Source: a virus
Reading direction: 5' to 3' (one strand)
Virus record (IMG/VR): IMGVR_UViG_3300007513_000004
Location: 1-64,000 of that record
DNA length: 64,000 nucleotides
Shown here: one piece after another, positions 3,122-61,743 of the stretch
Layout: the number at the start of each line of letters is the position of its first letter
Numbering within the stretch: the stretch's first letter is position 1
Translations under genes and position numbers: made by a program
The notes under the pieces: generated by a model
Databases searched by the model: none
Told to the model about the DNA's origin: nothing
What the model saw: only the letters and a program-made list of their open reading frames with translations

Positions 3122-3460
3122 TTAGTGGTCTAGACCTTCATCAGATGGAAACATATCCATTAGTTGAAGGGGTAGATATTCTTTAGCTTTTCTTCTCTCT
3201 TCGTCCGTTGGCTCAAAGCTTTCGCCTTCACGGGTTAAGTCTTCCAACTCACCAGCCGCTCTTACAAGGGCTTCTTCGGGAGAGAGGTTCTTTTCTGAAA
3301 TTAAATAAGAAATCATTTGACTTAATAAATCAAATTCTAAATCTGATGAACTATTTTTGATTAACAAATCAACTGCTTCATCTAAAATATCAGCTTCTTT
3401 TATAAGCCCTAAATCATCAATATCTTGTGCTATTATTGTTAATTCCTTTGCTATCTGCAT
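3122..3460 (-). CDS. Protein with N-terminal LIKLA-type module (divergent copy)
   Basis: 112 residues. Residues 1-35 (KELTIIAQDIDDLGLIKEAD ILDEAVDLL) match the helical module that recurs on about 18 proteins in this window. The rest is acidic and unrecognised (EEALVRAAGELEDL). RBS GGAG five nt before ATG. Confidence 0.65.
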   Translation of the reverse strand: MQIAKELTIIAQDIDDLGLIKEADILDEAVDLLIKNSSSDLEFDLLSQMISYLISEKNLSPEEALVRAAGELEDLTREGESFEPTDEERRKAKEYLPLQLMDMFPSDEGLDH

Positions 3461-18620: not shown

Positions 18621-19343
18621 ATGGTTGGTGATTTAATTTCAGTTTTGAACGAGTTAACAGATAGGGGTTTAACCAAAGAATCTGAATATTTATACGGAAT
18701 ATTCGAGAAGATTGCTTATGAATCCGAAGCCAGAGCAGAAGCTCTTTTAAACAGGGCTGATCCAAAAAGAAACCCTGAACCTAATGAGAGAAGCGTGGCA
18801 GCAGATCGCCTTGTAAACCTGCTCAAAAACCCCAATCGACCGGAGTTTGGCTATAAAGAACTTGCCAATTTAATTGCTCGAAGTGGCGTGCAAGACACTT
18901 TTGATTCAGAGGGCTTTCTTGGAGGGTCTCTGACCAATGCAGAAGTAACCGTATTGAGGCAGTTGCTGAGTCACGATGAAGCGCCAAGAGAAAGCGGATT
19001 TCGAAACCCCCGTTGGGAACAGGCTTATCGAGAGCAGCAGAGTGCTGGTCGAGAAGACGACACAAAGAAACCAAGATATGATCAGTATGAGGAAGACAAC
19101 CGGGCTGAAGATGTAGAGTTGATAGAAAGAATCCTAAACGCACTAGAGGGTCGAACAAAGCCTGTAAAAATAAAACGAAGCAGCGGCGTTAGTGAAGCAT
19201 GTGTTCTCACAAGAAATGGTGACTATACAACCTTTATAGTTCCGGTTTCAGATGTTAAATTGGGTCACAAGGTTTTATCAATAGATCATCTAATTGAAGA
19301 TTCGTTTCTATTTTTAAATCAAGATTTGGCCGAAATGTTCTAA
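18621..19343 (+). CDS. Protein with N-terminal LIKLA-type module (divergent)
   Basis: 240 residues. ATG at 18621 follows AGGAGG. Residues 1-33 (DLISVLNELTDRGLTKESEY LYGIFEKIAY) fit the recurring module. The remainder is charged and unrecognised with a C-terminal segment RTKPVKIKRSSGVSEACVLT. First gene of the plus-strand ExbB/ExbD operon. Confidence 0.7.
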   Translation: MVGDLISVLNELTDRGLTKESEYLYGIFEKIAYESEARAEALLNRADPKRNPEPNERSVAADRLVNLLKNPNRPEFGYKELANLIARSGVQDTFDSEGFLGGSLTNAEVTVLRQLLSHDEAPRESGFRNPRWEQAYREQQSAGREDDTKKPRYDQYEEDNRAEDVELIERILNALEGRTKPVKIKRSSGVSEACVLTRNGDYTTFIVPVSDVKLGHKVLSIDHLIEDSFLFLNQDLAEMF

Positions 19344-21604: not shown

Positions 21605-22627
21605 TTAAGAAACAGGCCCAGGTGTATCGGGATATATTCCAGAGTCATATATTGTTTTTCTTATTATTTCCATTCTTCTTTCTGCATCAATCTTCTCTCT
21701 TCTTAATTTCAGACCTACATTTTTGACCAGCCTAGATACATCGTGGGTTATCACAGGCTCTTCTCCTTTCGCAAGTTCTGCTAACTCATTCATGCCGCCT
21801 GTCTCTGCTAGGATTAAAGCATACGCAATCAATGGAGGGGGAGTTCCTGTGAGAGCTTGTGTTCTTCCGGCTAATGGCGCTCCTTCCAATGCAGCCTGTA
21901 AAGAATTAACGTCTATTTCATTAAAGTCTGCAAGACCTAATGGCCTCGCTCTGCATTGGCCTCTTCTCTTTATTGCTCCGGTCAACCCTTTGTATAAACA
22001 GTTTCTGTTTTTTCTTATGTATAAATCTATCAATTTTGTTTTTGGTCTTCCTATATTATCGAAATTCCATATTGCCAAAGCCGGTATAGCAAAAGCTGCC
22101 ATTGTTCCAAAGCCCAAGTTGAATATACGCTTCATCACAACGCCTTGTAAATGAGATTCCGGTTGGGAACTTATCCAGTCTTGCCAGCTTGAATATTCGG
22201 GAATATTCATAAACATCGAAAACAATGGAGAAGCGGAAGATATGTTGAGCCTTTGTGCTAATTGTGTGCCCAATTGTTTTCCAGCACCTTGTTCAGCCCT
22301 GTCTCTTGTGTCAAGACTTTCTTCTGCAGAAGTCTTTAAGATAAGTTCGTCTACAATGCCTGCCTCTTTAATTAATCCTCTGCTATCCAATTCGTTAGCA
22401 AGAACGATTAGTTTTTTGACAACAAGATCATCAGATGCAAAAGAGTGAACCCTACGCTCCTCCTTCGCGACCCGCTTCTTTGAGGGCTTCCTTGGTCCGA
22501 ACCATCTAAGTATCTTCTTGGGATTGGTCTTTGATACAAGAGCCCATTCTACACGGTCCTTCTTGCCTTTACCTCGCGTCGTCCTTTTCTTTCTTACAAG
22601 CTTTGATTCTTTTATCATATCATTCAT
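21605..22627 (-). CDS. Protein with internal LIKLA-type module
   Basis: 340 residues. Basic N-terminal region with VEWALVSKTNPKKILRWFGP, a motif common in phage proteins, then the recurring module at about residues 70-100 (KLIVLANELDSRGLIKEAGI). The rest has a hydrophobic stretch (GFGTMAAFAIPALAIW). C-terminus is charged. Unusual in that the module is not at the extreme N-terminus. Confidence 0.7.
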   Translation of the reverse strand: MNDMIKESKLVRKKRTTRGKGKKDRVEWALVSKTNPKKILRWFGPRKPSKKRVAKEERRVHSFASDDLVVKKLIVLANELDSRGLIKEAGIVDELILKTSAEESLDTRDRAEQGAGKQLGTQLAQRLNISSASPLFSMFMNIPEYSSWQDWISSQPESHLQGVVMKRIFNLGFGTMAAFAIPALAIWNFDNIGRPKTKLIDLYIRKNRNCLYKGLTGAIKRRGQCRARPLGLADFNEIDVNSLQAALEGAPLAGRTQALTGTPPPLIAYALILAETGGMNELAELAKGEEPVITHDVSRLVKNVGLKLRREKIDAERRMEIIRKTIYDSGIYPDTPGPVS

Positions 22628-22681: not shown

Positions 22682-23458
22682 CTATTGCTTTTCCCAGTTA
22701 ACATCTTTTAATAAAATTCCATCTATCCTAGTGTTGCTAAGTGGTTTGTGCAGCCTGCTCCCTCTATCGTCAATATAGTATGCAGTATTTCCATCCGGCC
22801 TCATATACTTTCTCCAGCCTTTAAATCTATATTCAGTTAGATCGCCAGTCTGTGCTTGGGGAGGACTTTCCTCTACCGGCTTTAAGTCATCAGGTAGTCT
22901 CTGTATGAGGTTATCATAACCTGGCCTTCCCTTTTTTATAGAAACAGTCTTCGTGGCGTTTCCCGCTGAATCAAAGAAGCTTGTATTTATCTTTCCTGAG
23001 GTTATTAAAAACTTTGGGCCACCTTTCTCTGGAGGCACATAAACATACTTATAAGGATCTCCAGCTGTATTTATATAATACTCTTCGCCTAAACCATATC
23101 GTCGCAAAACCTTTGCCGTATAAGAACTTGGGCCTATTGCCGTCTTAATCATTCTATAGTTTCTATCTGCTGCCAACTTTTTCCCAGCCTGGAGTCTATT
23201 CTGCGTTTGGGTAATACACTTGTTGTATTGAGGAGGGCCCTTTGTAAGACCCTTGGCTGCACAATGATCTTCTTCCTTTGTCGTATAGGAGGTTGAACCT
23301 TCGCCAAGGTTTGGACTCATACAGCCGTTTAAATCATTGTTCCAGACCATTGGTGGCTTACAATATGCGCTCTTTATTATTGCATCTAAATAGTCAGCTT
23401 CTTTTGTTAAGCCTTTGCTATCCAGATGTGTTGCCAATTTAATTAATTCATTAATCAT
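22682..23458 (-). CDS. Protein with N-terminal LIKLA-type module
   Basis: 258 residues. Residues 1-32 (ELIKLATHLDSKGLTKEADY LDAIIK) are a strong copy of the module, ending KSAY. The body has CKPPMVWNNDLNGCMSPN and later FKGWRKYMRPDGNTAYYIDD. Unrecognised body. RBS AGGAG seven nt upstream. Confidence 0.75.
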   Translation of the reverse strand: MINELIKLATHLDSKGLTKEADYLDAIIKSAYCKPPMVWNNDLNGCMSPNLGEGSTSYTTKEEDHCAAKGLTKGPPQYNKCITQTQNRLQAGKKLAADRNYRMIKTAIGPSSYTAKVLRRYGLGEEYYINTAGDPYKYVYVPPEKGGPKFLITSGKINTSFFDSAGNATKTVSIKKGRPGYDNLIQRLPDDLKPVEESPPQAQTGDLTEYRFKGWRKYMRPDGNTAYYIDDRGSRLHKPLSNTRIDGILLKDVNWEKQ

Positions 23459-23533: not shown

Positions 23534-24373
23534 TTAATAGGCAATATACGGGCTGGTTTCAAAGTCTTTTGAGAAGGATGCATCAAGAACAACAAGCTCT
23601 CCATTGGAGTTTGTTCCGAGGTTTCCAACCCCCAAATCTTTTGCGTCTATACCAAGCTTTGCCGAGAGCATAGCCAGCCTTCTAAACATTGGGTCTTTAT
23701 TTGCTGAATCCAATAGCTTGCGAATACTCTTCTCTTCTTCGGCGGGGGAACTGAATGGCACATAGGTTCTTAAAGAATTTATAAAAATAAAATCTTCTTC
23801 CCATTGTTTCTCGGTTTCTTTATACGCCGCCCAATGCAATAGTCTTCCTAGTACACTGGAGATAAAAGAAATATTTTGTTCTTCTATTTCCCTGATTAAC
23901 TCAGGAAAGAATTGTCCCAATTCTTTTTCATCCCTTATAACGGATACCTTATCCATTACAACCCAATCGAATTCGGAAGCTTTCATTGGTCTGTCGGAAC
24001 TTGCCGATCTACGTCCATGATGGTGAACTCTTGGAAACAGACCTCCGAATTCTGCTTGTCTATTGAACTCTGACTCATTCATCATTGATCCTCTAGGTCT
24101 TCTAGCTATCTTGACAACAAACGAATCATCCCCCGTTATTCCGATTGCATATCTGAAAGCTCCTGCTCCTGCCCAATAAAGGTTTTTATATTTCTCATGT
24201 ACCGCACGCTTTGCTTCCATGCCATCCGAATGATATAAATCCGTTGCAAGCTGCGGCAACTCTTGAAGCCAATCCCCATAATAACTGTGGATCATTTCTT
24301 CCAACTCTTCGGCCTCTTCTTCATGCTCCATATCTCTCAGGGCTATTGCCAGCTTATTTAATTTATATCTCAT
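23534..24373 (-). CDS. Protein-kinase-like / phosphotransferase-fold protein
   Basis: 279 residues. GAGAFRYAIGI (glycine loop), VVKIARRP (candidate catalytic Lys), NESEFNRQ (Glu), DWVVMDKV (hinge), AKDLGVGNLGTNSNGELVVLDAS (catalytic-loop and DFG-like Asp). The first 20 residues may be a weak form of the LIKLA module. Could phosphorylate a host or phage protein. Confidence 0.7.
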   Translation of the reverse strand: MRYKLNKLAIALRDMEHEEEAEELEEMIHSYYGDWLQELPQLATDLYHSDGMEAKRAVHEKYKNLYWAGAGAFRYAIGITGDDSFVVKIARRPRGSMMNESEFNRQAEFGGLFPRVHHHGRRSASSDRPMKASEFDWVVMDKVSVIRDEKELGQFFPELIREIEEQNISFISSVLGRLLHWAAYKETEKQWEEDFIFINSLRTYVPFSSPAEEEKSIRKLLDSANKDPMFRRLAMLSAKLGIDAKDLGVGNLGTNSNGELVVLDASFSKDFETSPYIAY

Positions 24374-27070: not shown

Positions 27071-27274
27071 TCAAACTTTTGCACGAGGATATGTTGTGCC
27101 GTCGTCTGCCTTATTCCAATTACCGCCTTCTCTTCTGGCTAATTGTGCTGGAGTTAACCTGTGTTCAGGAATGTCTTTTTCTCTATCTGCCCAACTGCGA
27201 GAAGACCCCACCGGTTTGTCCCAATCGAGAAAAAGACATTCCATCACCGATAGGTCCTGGAGCAGTTTCTTCAA
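27071..27274 (-). CDS. C-terminal part of a frameshifted LIKLA-module protein (possible)
   Basis: 67 codons in the +1 frame relative to 27183-27452. The segment DWDKPVGSSRSWADREKDIP continues to a natural-looking C-terminus ending RAKV. It probably continues the upstream protein through a +1 shift near 27235 at a run of T (minus strand TTTTT), or is a separate coupled gene. Confidence 0.5.
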   Translation of the reverse strand: MKKLLQDLSVMECLFLDWDKPVGSSRSWADREKDIPEHRLTPAQLARREGGNWNKADDGTTYPRAKV

Positions 27275-27452
27275 CCTCGCCCTCAGCCCCTACAAGCCAA
27301 CCAGGACCTTCGGCCCCTTCTACTGGGTTTCCATCAATATCTAATGGAATTCCTCCAGCAAATTTAAAAATTACTTTATCAATAACATCAGCTTCTTTCA
27401 CAAGGCCTCTGCTATCTAGTTCGCTGGCTAATTTAATTAATTCTACAATCAT
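27183..27452 (-). CDS. LIKLA-module protein, N-terminal part
   Basis: 89 residues. ELIKLASELDSRGLVKEADV is a clear module, then IDKVIFKFAGG and a proline/glycine/glutamate-rich linker. The frame ends soon after it enters the overlap with 27071-27274, suggesting +1 frameshifting or an indel. Confidence 0.6.
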   Translation of the reverse strand: MIVELIKLASELDSRGLVKEADVIDKVIFKFAGGIPLDIDGNPVEGAEGPGWLVGAEGEVEETAPGPIGDGMSFSRLGQTGGVFSQLGR

Positions 27453-52708: not shown

Positions 52709-53116
52709 TTATATAATTTGCTTATTATAAAAGAAGTTATAACCAAAGCTTAAAGCCTCTTGTATTTCCCTGCCACCCAAAACATTAGAAATTGCATTGC
52801 CTTTTTTATCATTATATTTCCATCCAGCTTGTGATTCTCTTGTCCAATCATTAATGGCCTGCCAAACAGGCTGTACAGGACTCGCTTTAGCTGCAAGTAA
52901 AGCTTTAGCCTGCTCTTCTGAGGTTGGCTTCAAAGTTATCTTGAAAAGTCCTGGTCGAACTCTTTCCATTGTAACAGGAATATCCAGTTTTGCTCCAGCA
53001 AGAATTTCTTTAAGCTTTGCAACAACTCTGGTGGGTCCTTCGCGCTGCTCACGACGTTGCATACGCTTTTCGGCTTTTGGAGACCTGTCTCTGTTGAGCC
53101 TTCTTAACCACGGCAT
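52709..53116 (-). CDS. C-terminal part of frameshifted LIKLA-module protein
   Basis: Up to 135 codons. RSPKAEKRMQRREQREGPTR then VVAKLKEILAGAKLDIPVTM and SQAGWKYNDKKGNAISNVLG. Lies in the +1 frame relative to the N-terminal module at 53049-53189. Either a +1 shift joins them or an indel split the gene. Its own ATG lacks a good RBS. Confidence 0.55.
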   Translation of the reverse strand: MPWLRRLNRDRSPKAEKRMQRREQREGPTRVVAKLKEILAGAKLDIPVTMERVRPGLFKITLKPTSEEQAKALLAAKASPVQPVWQAINDWTRESQAGWKYNDKKGNAISNVLGGREIQEALSFGYNFFYNKQII

Positions 53117-53189
53117 CCAAATAATCAGCTTCTTTGTGAAGGCCTTTCTTATCCAAATGTGTTGCTAGTTTTATTAATTCGTTAATCAT
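53049..53189 (-). CDS. LIKLA-module N-terminal part, frame ends early
   Basis: 46 residues: ELIKLATHLDKKGLHKEADY LDAVVKKAQ then a short tail and TGA. RBS AAGGA. The real protein probably continues in the +1 frame (52709-53116). Confidence 0.6.
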   Translation of the reverse strand: MINELIKLATHLDKKGLHKEADYLDAVVKKAQQRQVSKSRKAYATS

Positions 53190-53478
53190 CTTTCTTTTTC
53201 CTTGTCGATTTTGCTATGGCCTTATCATCGCATGGTATACAGAGGTTTCCCGTTGGCGTACTTTCGTGTTCCGTTTTGCATCCGCATGTGGGACAATCGC
53301 GATAATGATATCCTTCATCCATGCCTCCGCGATCATCGTCATACCAGGGATCTCGATATCTTCTTCCCCAGATATCTCTTGGGAGAGCTTTCTTTATAAC
53401 TGCATCAATATAATCAGCTTCTTTGTGAAAACCTTTATTATCTAAATGTGTTGCTAGCTTTATTAATTCGTTAATCAT
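53182..53478 (-). CDS. LIKLA-module protein with zinc-ribbon-like C-terminus
   Basis: 98 residues. Strong module (ELIKLATHLDNKGFHKEADY), then DCPTCGCKTEHESTPTGNLC IPCD giving two CxxC pairs. GGAG seven nt upstream decides the start at 53478. Confidence 0.75.
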   Translation of the reverse strand: MINELIKLATHLDNKGFHKEADYIDAVIKKALPRDIWGRRYRDPWYDDDRGGMDEGYHYRDCPTCGCKTEHESTPTGNLCIPCDDKAIAKSTRKKKDD

Positions 53479-53780
53479 TTTATAATCTCCGTGTAATCCG
53501 GTATCGTGTCTTGACCTATTAAGTTTTCCCCTCTCCAAATAATACCAAGCTCTGCCTGCTTTTCTTTAAGATTCTTTCCCGTATCATTTGGCACAAAGGC
53601 TTGCGGTGTTCGACCATATTGAAATGTTCCAACAACAACTGTATTCCATACATTTTTAATACGCACATTTTTAATGGGTGCTTCCGCATTCTTTTTAATC
53701 ACAGCATCAATATAATTAGCTTCTTTGTGAAGGCCCTTCTTATCCAAGTGTGTTGCCAGTTTTATTAATTCATTTATCAT
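53475..53780 (-). CDS. LIKLA-module protein, short body
   Basis: 101 residues. ELIKLATHLDKKGLHKEANY IDAVIKKNAEA, then a beta-rich body (KNVRIKNVWNTVVVGTFQYG). Unknown body. Confidence 0.7.
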   Translation of the reverse strand: MINELIKLATHLDKKGLHKEANYIDAVIKKNAEAPIKNVRIKNVWNTVVVGTFQYGRTPQAFVPNDTGKNLKEKQAELGIIWRGENLIGQDTIPDYTEIIK

Positions 53781-53792
53781 TATTCTCTTCCC

Positions 53793-54959
53793 TTATTGGG
53801 CGCTTGCCCAAAACATATCGCCCTCATACTCTTTCAAGGCTTCGCCCAAATCTTCATCCTCATCGGTCCTTGCGGCTATTGCCTCCTCCATACTTGAGTA
53901 TTGAGGCTCTTGAGGTCTTCCGGTTCCGAAAAGTTCGTTAACATCTTGAGTAGAAATCGGAGAAGGTTGACCCATAGGAACTGCAGAAGGAACCGGAGGC
54001 GGAGGCGGAGCATCTTGGACCATTGCTGCCAAACTTGGAATCTCATCCCACTTCTTCCAGCCAGGCCAGCCTGTTGTCCAGACTAAATGCCTGGCATTAA
54101 TATCTTCTGAAACCTTAGCCGCTATTTCCTCTACGGATAATTTGGCCTGACCGCTTGGGCCATGATAATGCATTGTGGCTGTCTCCGGAATAGGCGGAGG
54201 GGCTGCTCCTTCTGGGGCGGCTCCCTCTGGGGCTGCAACCGCAGCTGCACCTCCGGCGGCCATCACGGCTGCAACAGCATCTTTTTCTGACATTTCTTTT
54301 TCCGCCATAAGCTGAGAAGCCCTTACGGCCTGCTCTTCGGTTAAGCTCTCTCTCTCCATTAAATCTTTAATTTTTTCTGCTGCTTTGTATTGTTCTTCGA
54401 AAATATCAACTAGGACATTCCAAGCATCAACCCATCCATTTTCATTGTCCAGACCGGTCAACATTCTGGTCGCCGCATTGGCTCCCCAGTAATCATAGAT
54501 GTTATCTTGAAAATATTTTTCATCTATTTTAATATTTTCAAAATCTCCTTTCATCATCTTTTTCATTCTTACATCAAAGATTTCTCGAACAAAGGTTCCG
54601 CCTCTCGCCTTCCCGGCCGGAAAAGAACCAGGGCCGTCTATAAGGTCAGCCTGAGTCAAAGTTGTTCTGAAAGATTCCCAAAGATCTCCGGCAGGGGTGG
54701 CCGTTAGGTCTGTTACTCCCATTGTCTCAAAAACAGACATAGCATCTTCGCTTGCTTTGCTGACGCCAACAGCGGCAGTGGTTCCTGCTACGGCTGCGAT
54801 GATAGCTGCCGTCAGGTATGACACTCCAAAAATGGTTGCAGTTATCGGTTCTGCCATTTTTATCAATGCATCTATCTCATCAGATTCTTTCATCAATCTT
54901 CTTGAATCTAATTCGTTTGCAATTTTAACAAGCTGTTCCAAGGAAGCATTGTTTAACAT
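53793..54959 (-). CDS. Large LIKLA-module protein with hydrophobic and Ala/Pro-rich segments
   Basis: 388 residues. Module at about 8-37 (QLVKIANELDSRRLMKESDE), then a hydrophobic segment (SYLTAAIIAAVAGTTAAVGV), a helical central part with EEQYKAAEKIKDLMERESLT, an alanine/proline low-complexity run (AAPEGAAPEGAAPPPIPETA) and a C-terminal DEDLGEALKEYEGDMFWASA. Possibly a structural or membrane-interacting protein. Confidence 0.7.
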   Translation of the reverse strand: MLNNASLEQLVKIANELDSRRLMKESDEIDALIKMAEPITATIFGVSYLTAAIIAAVAGTTAAVGVSKASEDAMSVFETMGVTDLTATPAGDLWESFRTTLTQADLIDGPGSFPAGKARGGTFVREIFDVRMKKMMKGDFENIKIDEKYFQDNIYDYWGANAATRMLTGLDNENGWVDAWNVLVDIFEEQYKAAEKIKDLMERESLTEEQAVRASQLMAEKEMSEKDAVAAVMAAGGAAAVAAPEGAAPEGAAPPPIPETATMHYHGPSGQAKLSVEEIAAKVSEDINARHLVWTTGWPGWKKWDEIPSLAAMVQDAPPPPPVPSAVPMGQPSPISTQDVNELFGTGRPQEPQYSSMEEAIAARTDEDEDLGEALKEYEGDMFWASAQ

Positions 54960-55279
54960 GACCTTTGTCTCCTAGTTGTTAACTCAAATATTACCATGTC
55001 CATTTGACTTTACCTTCACCTTTAATCCACTTTATTACCACTTCAACCCACTTTGCTCCACTATTTACCACCACATAGAAATTATGGGCGAGTTTATCTT
55101 TGATAATCAAAGGCAAATAGATGTATAAAGAGGGTCTGTTCTCTGAAATTCCATTTTTATATAAAAAGATGTGTAATAAAAACCAATGATTTTCAATAAA
55201 AAATTAGTGATGAAAAAAGATGCTTATTGAAACGAATAAGAGATTTTTAAAAAACATATAATTTATATAGTGAAACGAA
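54960..55279. other. Intergenic region without clear gene
   Basis: AT-rich. Contains a pyrimidine-rich stretch (55010-55075) with repeated CCACTTTA-like units. On the minus strand this gives a 60-codon open frame without a start codon. Confidence 0.5.
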
Positions 55280-55474
55280 TCAATCAAAGCATCCTATTTC
55301 ATCTGCCCTAATTAGTAATTTCATATGCTGATTTGTGGTCAAACCTTTCTTTCCCAGAGAAATATTTTCATAGCTTTGCTCTATCCTTGGAAGAAGTATT
55401 TTGCATTCCGGTTCGCGGGGCGGTTCACAATAACTAATCATTACAAAAAAGAATATAGATAATTTAAAATTCAT
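55280..55474 (-). CDS. Small exported or lipoprotein-like protein
   Basis: 64 residues; N-terminal hydrophobic MNFKLSIFFFVMISYCEPP with a Cys after Ser-Tyr, so lipidation is possible but the lipobox is atypical. Unknown. Confidence 0.5.
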   Translation of the reverse strand: MNFKLSIFFFVMISYCEPPREPECKILLPRIEQSYENISLGKKGLTTNQHMKLLIRADEIGCFD

Positions 55475-55480
55475 TTAAGA

Positions 55481-55948
55481 TTAAACATCTTCGGGGTTTA
55501 TAAGGCTCCATATATCCTGCCATCTTGCGCTGGGCTTTTGATGATCAGGAGGAACAACATCGTAAACCTTTCGGCCTTCCTCTATTTCTTCCATCTGTTC
55601 TGGACTAACCTTTACCACGGATGCTTCGCCAGAATATGTTTCCTCATCATCTAAAACGACTATATGAAAGTTCATATCTCCAGGCGGCTCTTTGTCTAAC
55701 TCGTCTATAGCCTTTTGTATTTCTGGCCAATTTTCTGCAAGATAACTTCTGTATTCCTCTGGAGTTCTACGCCTTTCTGATCGATCTTTCTTCTTTTCTC
55801 TATATTCATCAAGGTCAACTAATTCGCCAAAGCCTTCTGGACTATCCAGTTCTGTCGAAAGCTTTACAAGGGAATCCAAAAGATCCGCTTCTTTCAGAAG
55901 ACCTCTGCTGTCCAGTTCGTTTGCTATTTTAATTAATTCCTTTAACAC
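55481..55948 (-). CDS. LIKLA-module protein, charged body
   Basis: 155 residues; GTG start. ELIKIANELDSRGLLKEADL LDSLVKLST, then a highly charged segment (DEYREKKKDRSERRRTPEEY) and MNFHIVVLDDEETYSGEASV. Unknown body. Confidence 0.7.
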   Translation of the reverse strand: MLKELIKIANELDSRGLLKEADLLDSLVKLSTELDSPEGFGELVDLDEYREKKKDRSERRRTPEEYRSYLAENWPEIQKAIDELDKEPPGDMNFHIVVLDDEETYSGEASVVKVSPEQMEEIEEGRKVYDVVPPDHQKPSARWQDIWSLINPEDV

Positions 55949-56217
55949 TTTAGGCCACTATTTCCTTCCAGCCTTTCTATGATAATTAAGCATCCAAGAT
56001 TGTACCAATCCTTAAAATAATAATAGAAGCCATGCTCCTTTAGGATGCCAAAAACAAGATCTTTCATGCCAGCACTGTTGCCTGTAATAATCTGAATGGG
56101 GAAGTTTTCCAATAAAACAAAATTAGTTACAGCAGTCTCCGCTTGATCATAGTCCATCCCATGTAAATCAAGGGTTTTTATACTATCTTTTCTTTTTTTT
56201 AGTCTTTTTTTTCGCAT
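55942..56217 (-). CDS. Smr-domain protein
   Basis: 91 residues. KTLDLHGMDYDQAETAVTNF and IITGNSAGMKDLVFGILKEH contain the DLHGxxxxxA and TGxGxxS-like signatures of Smr domains. Smr proteins are nucleases or nucleic-acid binders. Stand-alone short form with a basic N-terminus. Confidence 0.82.
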   Translation of the reverse strand: MRKKRLKKRKDSIKTLDLHGMDYDQAETAVTNFVLLENFPIQIITGNSAGMKDLVFGILKEHGFYYYFKDWYNLGCLIIIERLEGNSGLKC

Positions 56218-56310
56218 ATTCTTCTAACCTTACACAGTTTGATGTTATATTAATATTTTCAAAAACTTACAAGATGGTCATGAAGACTGTCGATACAAAG
56301 GAGCCGTAAT

Positions 56311-56721
56311 ATGTTAGAATTATTACAAAACTTACTAAATCTTGCCGTAGAACTAGGTATGTCTCTATGGGGCTTGTTGATGTTACTTCTTAGCTTTTCA
56401 GCGGAAACACTTCACTTGTTGCATACAGAGATGCCTCGCCTTGAAGGCTTGCTAGCAGGAGTTTTGCTAGCATGGTTGATGGCAAGGCGAAACAAACACC
56501 CACTGCTTCGCGCTTTAAGCGCACCGCTCAAGCTTGTCTTGGACATACTTGACTTAGTGTGGGACCAATGTGTTGAAGTTCTTCAGGATGTATTGGGAAC
56601 AGCAAAGAATTGGGTAAAAGGATCTTTAGGATGGGTTCGCAATAAGGTTGTGGGATTATACAACTGGAATATGAATCTATTAAAAGGACTTCTGTCCAAG
56701 CTTAAGAGAAAGTCAGAATAA
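56311..56721 (+). CDS. Membrane/amphipathic protein of unknown role
   Basis: 136 residues; leucine-rich with two to three hydrophobic helices (LLQNLLNLAVELGMSLWGLL, LLAGVLLAWLMARR) and a basic C-terminal end (LSKLKRKSE). AAAGGAG RBS. Only plus gene in this operon. Could be a holin-like or structural membrane protein; unproven. Confidence 0.65.
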   Translation: MLELLQNLLNLAVELGMSLWGLLMLLLSFSAETLHLLHTEMPRLEGLLAGVLLAWLMARRNKHPLLRALSAPLKLVLDILDLVWDQCVEVLQDVLGTAKNWVKGSLGWVRNKVVGLYNWNMNLLKGLLSKLKRKSE

Positions 56722-56753
56722 CGATAATAATCATTGTTATTTTGATACTTTAA

Positions 56754-56780
56754 AAGCAAGGCTTCGGCCTTGCTTTTTTA
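56754..56780. terminator. Terminator between convergent genes
   Basis: AAGCAAGGC-TTCG-GCCTTGCTT followed by TTTTA, ending the 56311 gene and overlapping the Nudix stop region. Confidence 0.75.
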
Positions 56781-57182
56781 GTCTTTACTATATTGAGACC
56801 ATATTTCCAATATCTTTATTAAAGATTCCGGCGTTGGTATAAATTGTAACTCTCGAAGCTTTGTAGGATGAACCCATTGATAGTCATCACTCTCCCAGTC
56901 TATCTTGACTTCTCCTTCCCAGTCAAATGATGTAAAGAAATGAATTTCTTTGTCTTCATCTTTAATTATTGTATCTAAATACATTAAAGTTAAAGGGTTT
57001 ACCTTCAGGGATGTTTCTTCAAAGGTTTCTCGAACAGCACATTCTTTAGCCGTCTCTCCCTCATCTGCGCCACCGCCAGGAAAGCACCAGTAGCCCACAA
57101 AGGTCTCCACTGCGGGACTTCTCTTGACAATGAGAATCTCCTCTTTTTCGTTGAAAACAATTATGACACCAGCATAAAGCAT
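56778..57182 (-). CDS. Nudix hydrolase
   Basis: 134 residues. GGGADEGETAKECAVRETFE followed by ETSLKV is a complete Nudix box (GX5EX7REUXEEXGU). Likely hydrolyses nucleoside diphosphate derivatives; substrate unknown. Confidence 0.92.
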   Translation of the reverse strand: MLYAGVIIVFNEKEEILIVKRSPAVETFVGYWCFPGGGADEGETAKECAVRETFEETSLKVNPLTLMYLDTIIKDEDKEIHFFTSFDWEGEVKIDWESDDYQWVHPTKLRELQFIPTPESLIKILEIWSQYSKD

Positions 57183-57213
57183 TTTGATATTCCATTTTAT
57201 ATTATACTATTAA

Positions 57214-57504
57214 TTAGTTTAAAGTTTCTTTAGAATTTGAATGAAAAGATCCCCAGATATTATTTAGCACATCAAGATCTGGAAGCGATTCTCTCCACGC
57301 GTAAAGCTCTTCAATTGCAACTATTGCATTGCGTAGATCTCGTATAATATAAACCAATTCAATCTCAAGACCCCTGAGCCTCTCTTCGGTGCTTGTCAGG
57401 CGAGCTTGCGACTCTTCATCAAGAGGACAGGGCTGTACATCAACGGCTTTATCCCAAAGCTGTTTTAGTCGCTGATAATTACCTTTTGCAGCAATTTTTT
57501 TCAC
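57214..57504 (-). CDS. Unknown helical protein
   Basis: 96 residues; GTG at 57504 chosen because AGGAG is 6 nt upstream; a TTG at 57546 would add an N-terminal CKCN segment. RLRGLEIELVYIIRDLRNAI is coiled-coil-like. Unknown. Confidence 0.6.
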   Translation of the reverse strand: MKKIAAKGNYQRLKQLWDKAVDVQPCPLDEESQARLTSTEERLRGLEIELVYIIRDLRNAIVAIEELYAWRESLPDLDVLNNIWGSFHSNSKETLN

Positions 57505-57669
57505 CTGAATCTCCTGCCAATTACATTTACAGTAATAAGAGTTCAAATTTGTGTTAAACTATTTTAAGTAGTTAAAATTGCATTATTTATAGGTTTTTCA
57601 ACCATTTTATGATATTATTTACCATCTTTTTCTTTTTTTCTTCCCGCCCCGGGAAGACTCTTGGTCCGC

Positions 57670-57897
57670 TCACGTATCGACCAAATCATGGGTTTCATTT
57701 TCCTGCTCTGTATCTTCAAGCATTTCAGACAGATTTTTAAAATAATATAGCTCATCACCAAGGCTTTGCTCGCAATCTGATTCATCTCTTTCAAGACTAT
57801 GAGATATCTTTTTAATTATAACATCCAAATAATCAGCCTCGACCTGCAAGCCGTTGCTGTCTAAGAAGTCTGCAAGTTTAATTAGTTCACTTATCAT
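57670..57897 (-). CDS. LIKLA-module protein, very short body
   Basis: 75 residues. ELIKLADFLDSNGLQVEADY LDVIIKKIS then an acidic tail. Nearly the bare module. Coupled to the next gene. Confidence 0.7.
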   Translation of the reverse strand: MISELIKLADFLDSNGLQVEADYLDVIIKKISHSLERDESDCEQSLGDELYYFKNLSEMLEDTEQENETHDLVDT

Positions 57898-57899
57898 CT

Positions 57900-58934
57900 T
57901 TAGCCTACCAATGTACCTTCTTCTGAAATATTAGTCGATTGCTTGGACTTATCCACAATTGCGGCTTCTTCTTCGTTTAGATTATAATTAGTCATATGAA
58001 TGAGCCTGTCTGGATCAAGCTTAAACGAAGAAGAAGAATCTTCATGCTCTTCAAACAGCGTTGCAATCTCCTCAGTGGTTAGAGGTCGGTTCTCCCTATC
58101 TCCCAAAGCCTCATTTAAAGTACTTAATTCATCTGGCGCTTTAAGCTCTGAGTTGGGTGTCGATAAGAACTCCTTCCCAGCAGAGGTAACTCCCAATACG
58201 GTGATATGCCAATGAGGCCCTGCCTTAGCCCTTTCTTCCTCGGACAGCTCCATTCTCCTTTCGTCAATTGGATCTAATCTGACCAAATTATTCTTTATAA
58301 TATATTGTAGCATTCTAGATATTTCTTCATCACTATTGCTTACAATGCCATAGTCTATAGCTTCCCCATCCTGATGAGAAGATATACCGCCTGCATCTTC
58401 TATTATCTTTGCAGAAATCTCCATCCCCTCTGGTTTGATAGCATAGCGATGCTCCGGAGGTTGCGCATATTCTTCCCATACAGAAATCAAGTCTTGTGCG
58501 ATAGATCCAGCACTAGCATGACAGCTTGCACAGTTGGAGTAAAGATTTGCTATATATTTGCTTCCTGTATTTTCAGTTCCCAAAAGACCATTCGCAACAC
58601 CGTCTGGTCCTCCATTCTTTTTCCACAGCCCAAGCATGGCCTGGACCTGTCTAAGGGGAGGTCTTAACCCACTTGTTACTATAGGTTCTGAAAATCCCAA
58701 CAACTCTGATAGCTTATCCATTATTAGCGCGAAACCTTGGGCTTCCTGAGTGACATTCAAATCAGAACCACTAAAGGAAACCTCTGTATCTTCCCAGTTG
58801 CCAGAGTAAGCTCCGGCTGCTGGTAGACTCATTTTTTCAGAATATTTTTTAATTATTTCATCTAAACAATTAGCTTCGATAATCAAATTTTTATTATCTA
58901 AAAAATCAGCCAACTTTATCAGCCTGCTTAACAT
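57900..58934 (-). CDS. LIKLA-module protein with M15-type peptidase domain
   Basis: 344 residues. Module LIKLADFLDNKNLIIEANCL at 5-24; then a region with TSGLRPPLRQVQAMLGLWKK, a helical part, and ISSHQDGEAIDYGIVSNSDE plus GPHWHITVLG, which supply the SxHxxGxAxD and HxH metal ligands of M15 (VanY-like) D,D-carboxypeptidases/endolysins. A CxxC pair (CASC) is also present. Could digest peptidoglycan at entry or exit. Confidence 0.82.
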   Translation of the reverse strand: MLSRLIKLADFLDNKNLIIEANCLDEIIKKYSEKMSLPAAGAYSGNWEDTEVSFSGSDLNVTQEAQGFALIMDKLSELLGFSEPIVTSGLRPPLRQVQAMLGLWKKNGGPDGVANGLLGTENTGSKYIANLYSNCASCHASAGSIAQDLISVWEEYAQPPEHRYAIKPEGMEISAKIIEDAGGISSHQDGEAIDYGIVSNSDEEISRMLQYIIKNNLVRLDPIDERRMELSEEERAKAGPHWHITVLGVTSAGKEFLSTPNSELKAPDELSTLNEALGDRENRPLTTEEIATLFEEHEDSSSSFKLDPDRLIHMTNYNLNEEEAAIVDKSKQSTNISEEGTLVG

Positions 58935-59539
58935 TAGCTCTCCAAGAGATCCCCTAAGTCAACAGTCTGGTGTGTTGATCGCTCTCTCTTTGACCCACCT
59001 ATTGTTCTCTCAAGCTCTTTTATCGTCGCCCCAGTTTGCGCCATGGCCTCTCGGGCTCTAGCCTCAGCCTCTTGTTGCTTGAGGTCTCCTTGTGCCTTAT
59101 AGGGGTCAAGGTCATCATATTCTGCTTCTTTTTCTGCACCTGCATCAGGAGGAGAGCCTTTCTCCAACACTAGTTCTTTTTTTCCAGAGAAGAAATCTAA
59201 AACAGCTTTGACCGTCGCCGTATGTTCATCGGCACTTAACATGTCCGTTAGTTCGTCAATGTCCGTTTCTGCGTCTTGGCCAAATACGGGAGTTCCGCCG
59301 ACAATCCATCCCGCCACTTTTCGAGCATCGGCCATCTTTGCGTTCTCTCGGGCATAGAAGTTATGCATTTCTTCGCCAGCCTCTGCTCCGGGAGCTTCCA
59401 AAGACTTAGCGTGTTCTTCATGCTCCATCCCCTCGTCTCTTCCCGCTGTCTTTCCCAATAATGAATCAAGATAGTCAGCTTCTTTTCTCAAGCCTTTCTT
59501 GTCCAATTCATTTGCTAGTTTTATAAGTTGTTTAATCAT
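58934..59539 (-). CDS. LIKLA-module protein, charged body
   Basis: 201 residues. QLIKLANELDKKGLRKEADY LDSLLGKTAG, then a highly charged body including ADARKVAGWIVGGTPVFGQD. DNA for the module is identical over about 75 nt to that at 60371-60445. Confidence 0.7.
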   Translation of the reverse strand: MIKQLIKLANELDKKGLRKEADYLDSLLGKTAGRDEGMEHEEHAKSLEAPGAEAGEEMHNFYARENAKMADARKVAGWIVGGTPVFGQDAETDIDELTDMLSADEHTATVKAVLDFFSGKKELVLEKGSPPDAGAEKEAEYDDLDPYKAQGDLKQQEAEARAREAMAQTGATIKELERTIGGSKRERSTHQTVDLGDLLES

Positions 59540-59548
59540 TAGTTCACC

Positions 59549-59884
59549 TTATCTATATTTAATAATCTTAAGATTTGAGTAATCACCGCCCCCGCGAGCT
59601 GTGGTGTCGGTGCCAATAAGATTCTTTGGACCTTCAAAATTTTCATAGCTTCCATCAGACGAAGTAAACTTGTAATTGGGAGGCTTTGCATAAGGAGTTG
59701 ACATCAAAGTGCCAATCCTCTTTGCTTTTGGACACGGATCCTCTCCTGGGCATTGATCACTTGTGGTAATATCATCAACCAATGTCCTAGCCGTTTTCTT
59801 AATCACAGCATCAATATAATTGGCCTCTCTATGAAGCCCCTTCCTATCCAAATGTGTTGCTAGCTTTATTAATTCGTTAATCAT
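59549..59884 (-). CDS. LIKLA-module protein, short basic body
   Basis: 111 residues from ATG 59884. ELIKLATHLDRKGLHREANY IDAVIKKTA, then a body with CPGEDPCPKAKRIGTLMSTP. Unknown. Confidence 0.7.
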   Translation of the reverse strand: MINELIKLATHLDRKGLHREANYIDAVIKKTARTLVDDITTSDQCPGEDPCPKAKRIGTLMSTPYAKPPNYKFTSSDGSYENFEGPKNLIGTDTTARGGGDYSNLKIIKYR

Positions 59885-60461
59885 TCTGCTCAGGCCCCCA
59901 GTTTGGATCAGTCCACGATGGATGACCAGTCTCTTCCTTGGGCCACACCTTTGCCTTAACTCCAGAAACTGACACAATTAGACCTTCCTGGGAGGCAAAA
60001 TAAGGCAGTCCATCGAGCCACCGACCGTCCGCTCCTCTGTATTTCTTAGATGATTTTCCGACAATCCTATCCCACATTGGGTCAGACCATGGTTTGGAAT
60101 TTCCTTGTGTATCTGTAAACATTATTGTTGACTCCAAAGGCGATGCTCTTCCCTTATATTTTACATCATACAAAGCTTGCGGAAGCTCTACTTTTATTTT
60201 GTCCTCATCTACCCCAAAGTGTGCTGCGCCCAATGGCCGAGCGTTTTTGAAAACGGAGCCAAAAACATTAAAGATAGACATGGGAGAATCAAGTTTGGCA
60301 TTCCCCAGGTCCACAACCTTTGGGTTTGGATGCTTTTTTTCTACGGGGAAGCTCACCCTGGCCCCCGCTGTCTTTCTCAATAATGAATCAAGATAGTCAG
60401 CTTCTTTTCTCAAGCCTTTCTTGTCCAATTCATTTGCTAGTTTTATAAGTTCATTAAGCAT
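59877..60461 (-). CDS. LIKLA-module protein, unknown body
   Basis: 194 residues from ATG 60461. ELIKLANELDKKGLRKEADY LDSLLRKTAGA then VVDLGNAKLDSPMSIFNVFG and ESTIMFTDTQGNSKPWSDPM. RBS AGGAGGGG. Unknown body. Confidence 0.72.
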   Translation of the reverse strand: MLNELIKLANELDKKGLRKEADYLDSLLRKTAGARVSFPVEKKHPNPKVVDLGNAKLDSPMSIFNVFGSVFKNARPLGAAHFGVDEDKIKVELPQALYDVKYKGRASPLESTIMFTDTQGNSKPWSDPMWDRIVGKSSKKYRGADGRWLDGLPYFASQEGLIVSVSGVKAKVWPKEETGHPSWTDPNWGPEQND

Positions 60462-60924
60462 TTGCGACCCCTCCTGCCGAGTCAGTGTTTGCTGCGGCCA
60501 ATAATCCGAAGCTGGTTCTAAGATTTGCAATAAATGGCTCAACCTCTGCACCGCCATGAAGCCTCCCGGCATCAGACAGCCAATACCCTATGTCATCATC
60601 TGTCAGCGGTGGATTATAATCATCTTTTGCGCTATTAAAAGCAGCTTTTGTTTCTTGAAGAGTAATTAAGGATGCTCCCAAGTCTTTTTCTTTGTAAGAT
60701 ATGTTTCCACCTGCACCCTCAGGTACAATATGGCCTTTTATTATATTCCTTTTAAGCTTAGGAATAACATTTTCACCAACGAAATATTCTATTAATTCAA
60801 GAAAACTCTGTTGCTCATCTGACATGCCGGCGTGCTTTTTAAGCATGTCATCCAAATAATCAGCCTCTTTGCACAAGCCTCTGCTATCCAAAAAGTCCGC
60901 CAATTTTATAAGTTCATTAATCAT
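60454..60924 (-). CDS. LIKLA-module protein, unknown body
   Basis: 156 residues. ELIKLADFLDSRGLCKEADY LDDMLKKHAG; body with ELIEYFVGENVIPKLKRNII and NPPLTDDDIGYWLSDAGRLH. Unknown. Confidence 0.72.
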   Translation of the reverse strand: MINELIKLADFLDSRGLCKEADYLDDMLKKHAGMSDEQQSFLELIEYFVGENVIPKLKRNIIKGHIVPEGAGGNISYKEKDLGASLITLQETKAAFNSAKDDYNPPLTDDDIGYWLSDAGRLHGGAEVEPFIANLRTSFGLLAAANTDSAGGVANA

Positions 60925-60954
60925 TTGATTCTCTATAATAATCCCACTTTGTTT

Positions 60955-61743
60955 TTAAAAATTAGTAGGTATCTCTTCTTCCGGTTCTTCCGCTTCTTCT
61001 TCGGCGCTTGAAGCTCCCTGATTTGGAAGAATCACGGCCCACACAGGACTCTCCGTGCCGCCCCATTGAGACGACTTGGGCACCTCCTGCCCCTCTATGG
61101 TCATACCACCGGGAAAGGCCGAAGCAAGAGCATATAGATCGCCATCATCGCGCACATCCGCAAGACGCTCTTCGACCAAAGCTTTCGTTGCTTCATCAGC
61201 ATACTTGGGGTCATAGTTAGGAACAATTACCGTTGTCTCATCCGTTGAAAAATCTTCAATACTTGCCGACGTTGCAACCTTGGCCACGGGAATGTCCACC
61301 CAATCACCCGCCTCTTGGCTAAACTCTCGCTTATGAGGAGGGCCATCTTGCCTTTCGGCATCGGGCAACTCCATAGCATGTTCATAAGGTTTAACAAGCT
61401 CGTATCCGCCTCCTGGAAACTTTGCGGAATAAAATGGACTGCCGCCAGATTTTAAATCAGCCGTGGACAAGAAATCAAGAATTTGTTGAGGACTTATGTT
61501 TCCGGAGAAGATAGATCCAATGCCAAGCTCTTGGTGCGTTCCGATATGATCAAGAACTTCTTTTCCAACCAATACAACCTTGCCATCGGTTCGATTTACA
61601 AGCGTCACATCTCCAACCTTTTCAAAGGTTGAGTCTCCCATTTCTTCGGCAAACTTTAAGATCACAGCATCCAATCTGTCCGCGAGCTTTAGATGCCCTT
61701 TCTCATCCAGAGTATTTGCAACTTTTATTAATTTATTAAGCAT
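60955..61743 (-). CDS. LIKLA-module protein, unknown body
   Basis: 262 residues. KLIKVANTLDEKGHLKLADR LDAVILKFAEE, then a beta-rich body (DVTLVNRTDGKVVLVGKEVL) and an acidic C-terminus. RBS AAGGAG. Unknown. Confidence 0.72.
   Translation of the reverse strand: MLNKLIKVANTLDEKGHLKLADRLDAVILKFAEEMGDSTFEKVGDVTLVNRTDGKVVLVGKEVLDHIGTHQELGIGSIFSGNISPQQILDFLSTADLKSGGSPFYSAKFPGGGYELVKPYEHAMELPDAERQDGPPHKREFSQEAGDWVDIPVAKVATSASIEDFSTDETTVIVPNYDPKYADEATKALVEERLADVRDDGDLYALASAFPGGMTIEGQEVPKSSQWGGTESPVWAVILPNQGASSAEEEAEEPEEEIPTNF

Follow-up and report, generated by a model that had tools for sequence, protein, structure and literature searches.

Why does one phage place the same short segment on a series of otherwise unrelated proteins? 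The question arises from a 64,000-nucleotide stretch of viral DNA (the window), positions 1 to 64,000 of the 223,402-base virus record IMGVR_UViG_3300007513_000004 (G000), in which about 18 genes were predicted to share a helical module with the opening LIKLA. The original prediction compared this module to the capsid-targeting propeptides of T4 and proposed that it is a sorting or packaging signal. Our analysis inclines us, with modest confidence, to read it as a position-independent helical-hairpin address tag that would dock unrelated cargo into the prohead, so that it is packaged and reaches the next host cell. The sorting or packaging role is the best-supported reading because copies are conserved in the head gene cluster, because the module was found only in viruses as far as we searched, and because it is attached to bodies resembling injected effectors. 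The T4-style N-terminal propeptide, on the other hand, did not stand as it was worded.

We searched the six-frame open reading frames (ORFs) of the window and of the remainder of G000 with a hidden Markov model (HMM) of module residues 1-31, taking gene starts from simple ORF rules. At E<1e-3 there were 22 copies in the whole record. Real copies scored 24-59 bits as compared to a best score of 7.2 bits in 10x shuffled proteins, and these decoys contained no copies. A blind all-vs-all search for short segments common to otherwise dissimilar proteins yielded a single large component, which is the module (G000, 23 proteins; contig G001, 15; G002, 11). Sixteen of the 18 listed genes, named here by their first window position, were significant by HMM. 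Gene 18621 was marginal only (11.3 bits, E 0.005; + strand, 18621-18713 at the N-terminus of 18621-19343). The weak copy reported at 23534 (- strand, 24287-24373 at the N-terminus of 23534-24373) gave no score alone, but its N-terminus, MRYKLNKLAIALRDMEHEEEAEELEEMIH, resembles a degenerate copy, and the homologue of its body in G006 (G006:102256, E 7e-7) has a full copy. Six clear copies lie outside the window in G000 (71439, 80514, 81189, 95596, 96678 and 110494), of which two sit at the very C-terminal end of their proteins.

The consensus of 158 non-redundant copies is xxLIKLANxLDxxGLxKEADxLDxII, in which A7, L10, D11, G14, A19 and D23 are kept at 90-98%. For the 75-amino-acid (aa) window protein 57670-57897, AlphaFold2 gave a hairpin of helices at residues 2-14 and 18-36, with a predicted local distance difference test (pLDDT) score of 85-89 over residues 1-30. 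The module is therefore predicted to be a helix-turn-helix hairpin of ~30 residues, and its helices are amphipathic. The duplication of the module between two genes proved to be real: 58934 and 59877 are identical at 86 of 90 nucleotides over the module, with an unbroken run of 74. Identity in the flanks is low (11/40 upstream and 22/60 downstream), which indicates that the module alone was copied and moved as a unit.

Most copies are N-terminal, as was proposed, but C-terminal, between-domain and repeated copies occur too. Twenty-two distinct copies end no more than 15 residues from the C-terminus, among them that of the 784-aa nucleotidyltransferase-HAD protein 110494-112848. Each of five proteins carries two or three copies, and some other proteins have an internal one. 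The copy in 21605, already described as internal, is not directly preceded by an ATG, GTG or TTG codon and so looks internal. Start codons are uncertain for ~10 copies that follow an open frame of >100 aa, and these may in fact be internal copies. In T4, prohead core targeting of IPIII needs no more than its first 10 residues, and gp21 cuts after [LI]xE (PMC9026906). Here, both the C-terminal and internal copies and the lack of [LI]xE enrichment after the module (0.84 near versus 1.68 far, per 100 residues) speak against a T4-style propeptide. The [AGS]xE motif of the phiKZ/SPN3US type was not enriched either (2.63 versus 2.49 per 100 residues).

The tendency of copies to end near K-x-A, on the other hand, was upheld. 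An alanine occurs within 4 residues after the module in 94 of 132 copies with a body behind them as compared to 4 of 22 C-terminal copies (p 3e-6), or 4 of 13 when the comparison is restricted to C-terminal tails of at least 3 residues (p 0.005); these p values are optimistic because the copies are related by descent. The pattern would suit a processing or hinge site that is relevant only when a body follows. Cleavage at the K-x-A junction, which the original prediction had added, is a suggestion.

The module recurred on uncultured virus contigs, with 164 distinct copies in all and 6-22 per large contig studied, again on otherwise unrelated bodies. No credible copies were obtained from isolate phages (tblastn against INPHARED) or plasmids, and none from cellular genomes in a limited scan by short exact patterns. 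As far as searched, the module thus appears confined to viruses, and its carriers, judged by their sequences, are a group of giant, uncultured bacteriophages.

The record that holds the window overlaps others. Positions 119568-223401 of G000 correspond to the first 103.8 kb of record G004 (1-103834) at 99.999% identity, and positions 51733-119403 are identical (100%) to record G009. G000 and G004 thus seem to be overlapping parts of a single phage population, and the near-perfect overlap of two IMG/VR records means that G000 is a partial genome. The head genes of the window's phage are probably located on G004.

A head cluster conserved in G004 and six relatives comprises a major capsid protein (MCP), protease, portal and terminase; G015 and G016 end before the MCP. 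The MCP (G004:113500-114552) is 46% identical to the major head protein of phage G. A co-occurring prohead protease, which had been proposed as a check, was found in G004 and relatives: the N-terminal part of a 1150-aa protein (G004:119771-123223) has homologues in phage G gp19 and in Tunturi_5 gp331, the latter annotated as a head maturation protease. A GroEL gene and a UvsX-like recombinase lie near the cluster. The module itself is present there. A protein of 162-428 aa with the pattern DQHG..FQ carries 1-3 copies in G002, G003, G004, G007, G015 and G016; its orthologue in G001 has none, but the adjacent gene does (6/7 relatives tagged). A tagged gene directly precedes the terminase operon in G001, G003, G004 and G007. 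When 153 ortholog clusters were compared by hhalign, a weaker copy was found in a 181-aa protein after the portal (probability 82, E 1e-5), followed by a few borderline clusters and then a steep drop. AlphaFold2 gave the helix-turn-helix hairpin for all three copies of a head-cluster protein with three (pLDDT about 60-75). Pfam gave no matches for the head-cluster protein or the protease-like protein, and Foldseek gave no significant match for the head-cluster protein, whose model is weak (pLDDT 53).

The bodies attached to the module behave differently from other genes. A homologue in another contig was found for 14 of 72 tagged bodies (19%) as compared to 54% of untagged genes 60-450 aa long (644 of 1183; p 4e-9). 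By this comparison the tagged bodies turn over fast, which is how interchangeable cargo would behave on a dock that stays the same. Recognised bodies include a PolyA_pol/CCA domain (E 2e-30) with a HAD-like part, peptidoglycan-binding or endolysin/lysozyme-like domains, GDSL lipase and LysM; one tagged protein has a tail-fibre-like match, and an ArdC_N match is marginal (ArdcN, 24.1 bits versus a cut-off of 22.6). Segments resembling the tag were seen, by eye only, in the lysozyme protein 89590-92154. Tagged proteins are for the most part small, and a few are multi-domain (PolyA_pol plus HAD-like). The M15 peptidase body assigned to 57900 is a reading of motifs by eye, for which Pfam and PDB searches gave no confirmation; a kinase-like body, read from motifs, was likewise not confirmed by a PDB sequence search. 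Several body classes are, by analogy, those of injected polyvalent proteins.

A constant tag on fast-changing, effector-like bodies, together with the same tag in conserved head proteins, looks like a cargo-loading signal. We propose that the hairpin would dock cargo into the prohead during assembly, and that the tagged cargo would enter the particle along with the genome and thereby reach the next host cell. The partner of the tag is likely to be in the prohead core, either the conserved head-cluster protein with 1-3 copies or a protein that binds those copies. Where a body follows the tag, a head-maturation protease may cut near K-x-A and free the cargo.

Unexpectedly, a second tag, unrelated in sequence, appears in phages with the same MCP family. 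The 485-kb phage LR745208, a relative by MCP, has no LIKLA tag; another module, MTTLRSKLIRLAHENPALRPHLLPLLKEA, occurs there 11 times, mostly at N-termini. Its pattern, LRSKLIRLAHENPxLRPxLLPLLKxA, occurs in 2-23 copies each on 13 contigs (L189 18730(+) and 26357(+); L190-L255), several of them huge, in N-terminal, C-terminal, internal and repeated positions. Both tags share an LI[KR]LA opening and a K-x-A end. We considered that they might be one family and rejected this, as profile-profile comparison by hhalign gave a probability of 11 over 7 columns. Of the 51 copies of the second tag that have a body behind them, 45 are followed by an alanine. The same MCP family (36-37% identity) is present in all 8 second-tag contigs >140 kb, and in 5 of the 8 the protease family lies 3-4 kb from the MCP; the first group's terminase gave 0/7 matches among the second-tag contigs tested. 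The bodies include ART-PolyVal (E 4e-12), RelA_SpoT, pentapeptide repeats and DUF2958. In the limited pattern scan of cellular genomes one copy was found, on a 10-kb contig of a metagenome-assembled genome. To judge from these sequences, the second tag is used in huge phages in the same way as the first. It is conceivable, although here we are tentative, that giants with a phage-G-type head evolved a packaging code at least twice independently. Such a tag, short, helical and unrelated in sequence between lineages, would be placed at either end of an effector or between its domains, with no closed list of effectors, and be read by a tag-bearing prohead protein, making the capsid a programmable protein-delivery vehicle.

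Several observations weigh against loading into the prohead. Phage G, Tunturi_5 and Rctr197k have neither type of tag despite the same MCP family (in phage G, none in a module search of the full genome and none in a blind search of the first 400 kb), so that this head type can do without a tag. The head cluster accounts for a minority of the tagged genes, and the further contigs were gathered via the module itself, which biases co-occurrence. Neither known protease motif is enriched at the junction. Conserved [ILVMF]xKxA sites, such as IVKYA near the MCP N-terminus, occur in 7 of 21 head ortholog clusters versus 16 of 131 elsewhere (p 0.02, uncorrected), a weak enrichment of a motif picked post hoc. 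Finally, these phages are known here from contig sequence alone, so that the presence of tagged proteins in the virion is something we infer.

It could be speculated that the tag docks proteins not inside the prohead but onto another phage structure, be it the tail or baseplate, a membrane-bound complex or an assembly compartment within the cell. Peptidoglycan hydrolases and tail-fibre-like proteins, both found among the tagged bodies, also occur in tails, and many tagged genes are distant from the head genes; however, tagged genes are absent from the tail/baseplate region of G000 (about 161-211 kb) whereas the head cluster has conserved ones, and we consider this explanation unlikely. Another possibility is that the module plays no part in targeting and is a segment spread by recombination, for instance a leader, stabilising or translation-promoting, that is copied from gene to gene. 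The sharp DNA-level copying of the module alone would suit such a segment. C-terminal and internal copies speak against a leader, and the six positions kept at >=90% of 158 copies point to selection on the hairpin, which makes this explanation improbable.

The same C-terminal copies argue against recruitment to the phage-encoded GroEL chaperonin, which is more improbable still. Although the GroEL gene adjoins the head cluster in relatives, the helices are amphipathic, and PMC10052503 (its reference 29) cites the T4 head protein N-terminus as directing proteins to GroEL, the strong conservation of polar D11, G14 and D23 suggests a specific interface and not generic chaperonin binding. We give least credit to a single unit resembling a tetratricopeptide repeat (TPR) that makes generic contacts within one multi-protein complex. 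The ~30-residue helix-turn-helix and its A/G/A spacing are TPR-like, and some weak Foldseek matches are TPR proteins. However, TPRs are usually arrayed while the module is mostly single, no relative of solved structure was found by sequence, and the 25 Pfam families listed for 95 members include no TPR; TPR membership was therefore rejected.

Prohead loading by an address tag finds partial counterparts in known systems. Like the T4 capsid-targeting sequence, the module is a short element on otherwise unrelated small proteins of a phage that encodes a head-maturation protease, and it would load the prohead core. It differs in being a ~28-residue hairpin, in its 6-22 copies on large contigs, in its C-terminal and internal positions and in the lack of [LI]xE enrichment. 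Because two defining T4 features fail (N-terminal position only and [LI]xE), we do not file it as a member; the best reading, by analogy, is that it works like the T4 signal without belonging to it. The giant myoviruses phiKZ and SPN3US also have heads with many proteins, some paralogous and processed by a prohead protease, but in the excerpts of PMC5694885 and PMC10052503 each propeptide belongs to one protein or paralogue family, with the cut following [AGS]xE, and no short module on unrelated bodies is described. Polyvalent proteins of phages and conjugative elements, with 2-15 disparate domains per polypeptide, are predicted to be packaged and injected (PMC5512222). Some of the tagged proteins share their body classes (ART-PolyVal on the second tag, Pol-beta-type nucleotidyltransferases, peptidases), but that work describes effector domains whereas here a dedicated tag sits on mostly small, single-body proteins. 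The head of Bacillus phage G (gp14 portal, gp19 protease homologue, gp27 MCP) is homologous in MCP, portal and protease, but no tag was found. Encapsulin cargo-loading peptides also load cargo by a short peptide, into the HK97-fold shell of a cellular compartment; they are short, C-terminal and cellular. Full-text literature searches found no description of a tag such as this one.

In the window, the 16 significant copies are all on the - strand. N-terminal copies are at 53097-53189 (gene 53049-53189, 46 aa; by HMM), 53386-53478 (53182-53478, whose body has CxxC pairs), 53688-53780 (53475-53780), 55856-55948 (55481-55948, GTG start), 58842-58934 (57900-58934, M15-like by eye), 59792-59884 (59549-59884), 60832-60924 (60454-60924), 61651-61743 (60955-61743), 23366-23458 (22682-23458), 27360-27452 (27183-27452) and, in divergent form, 3377-3448 (3122-3460). 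The two near-identical copies are at 59447-59539 (58934-59539) and 60369-60461 (59877-60461), both N-terminal. The copy in 57670-57897 spans 57805-57897, that in 53793-54959 spans 54858-54941 (residues 9-34, near the N-terminus; the body has a hydrophobic segment and a GYF_2 match below threshold), and the internal copy of 21605-22627 spans 22331-22417 (residues about 71-96). A 135-aa ORF at 52709-53116 overlaps ORF 53049 in another frame directly after the module. It probably continues the body of 53049, and a frameshift (an error, a mutation or a programmed one) may separate tag and body there. A second shared segment of about 50 aa, LTTEEI..LF.EHED.SS.FKLD..RL..MT..NL.EEEAAIV (57954-58103, - strand), links the M15-like protein 57900-58934 with the head-cluster protein G004:138062-139162; related segments occur in G007 and G015.

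Other features of these phages were noted in passing. The window encodes a transfer-messenger RNA (1878-2227, tag ANNNYYYEPVALAA) and nine tRNA genes between 10790 and 44629. By eye, several lipoprotein-like genes lie at G000 73724-74476 (L001:9724-10476) and 84276-87398 (L002:276-3398), one with GDDDDSAVDTSGDDDDS repeats and two with WCGxC thioredoxin-like motifs; they are a possible clue to the host. Also by eye, a block of sugar-nucleotide enzyme and glycosyltransferase-like genes (G000 145134-161624) precedes the tail genes. At G000 130966-135464 (L004:6966-11464) a PrkA/YeaG-like serine-kinase gene, common to large Thermus phages (32-36% identity), stands beside a gene matching a sporulation-protein family. 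The terminase large-subunit gene at G014:86460-89294 and G017:68030-70864 is a 949-aa open frame interrupted in frame, near query residue 185, by an intein-like insertion of about 350 codons.

If prohead loading by this tag is correct, it would provide a modular means of directing proteins into large capsids, and it would make testable how giant phages pick their head cargo among hundreds of proteins. The tag would then serve as a simple sequence reader by which, for many uncultured giant phages, the injected effectors could be named from the genome alone.

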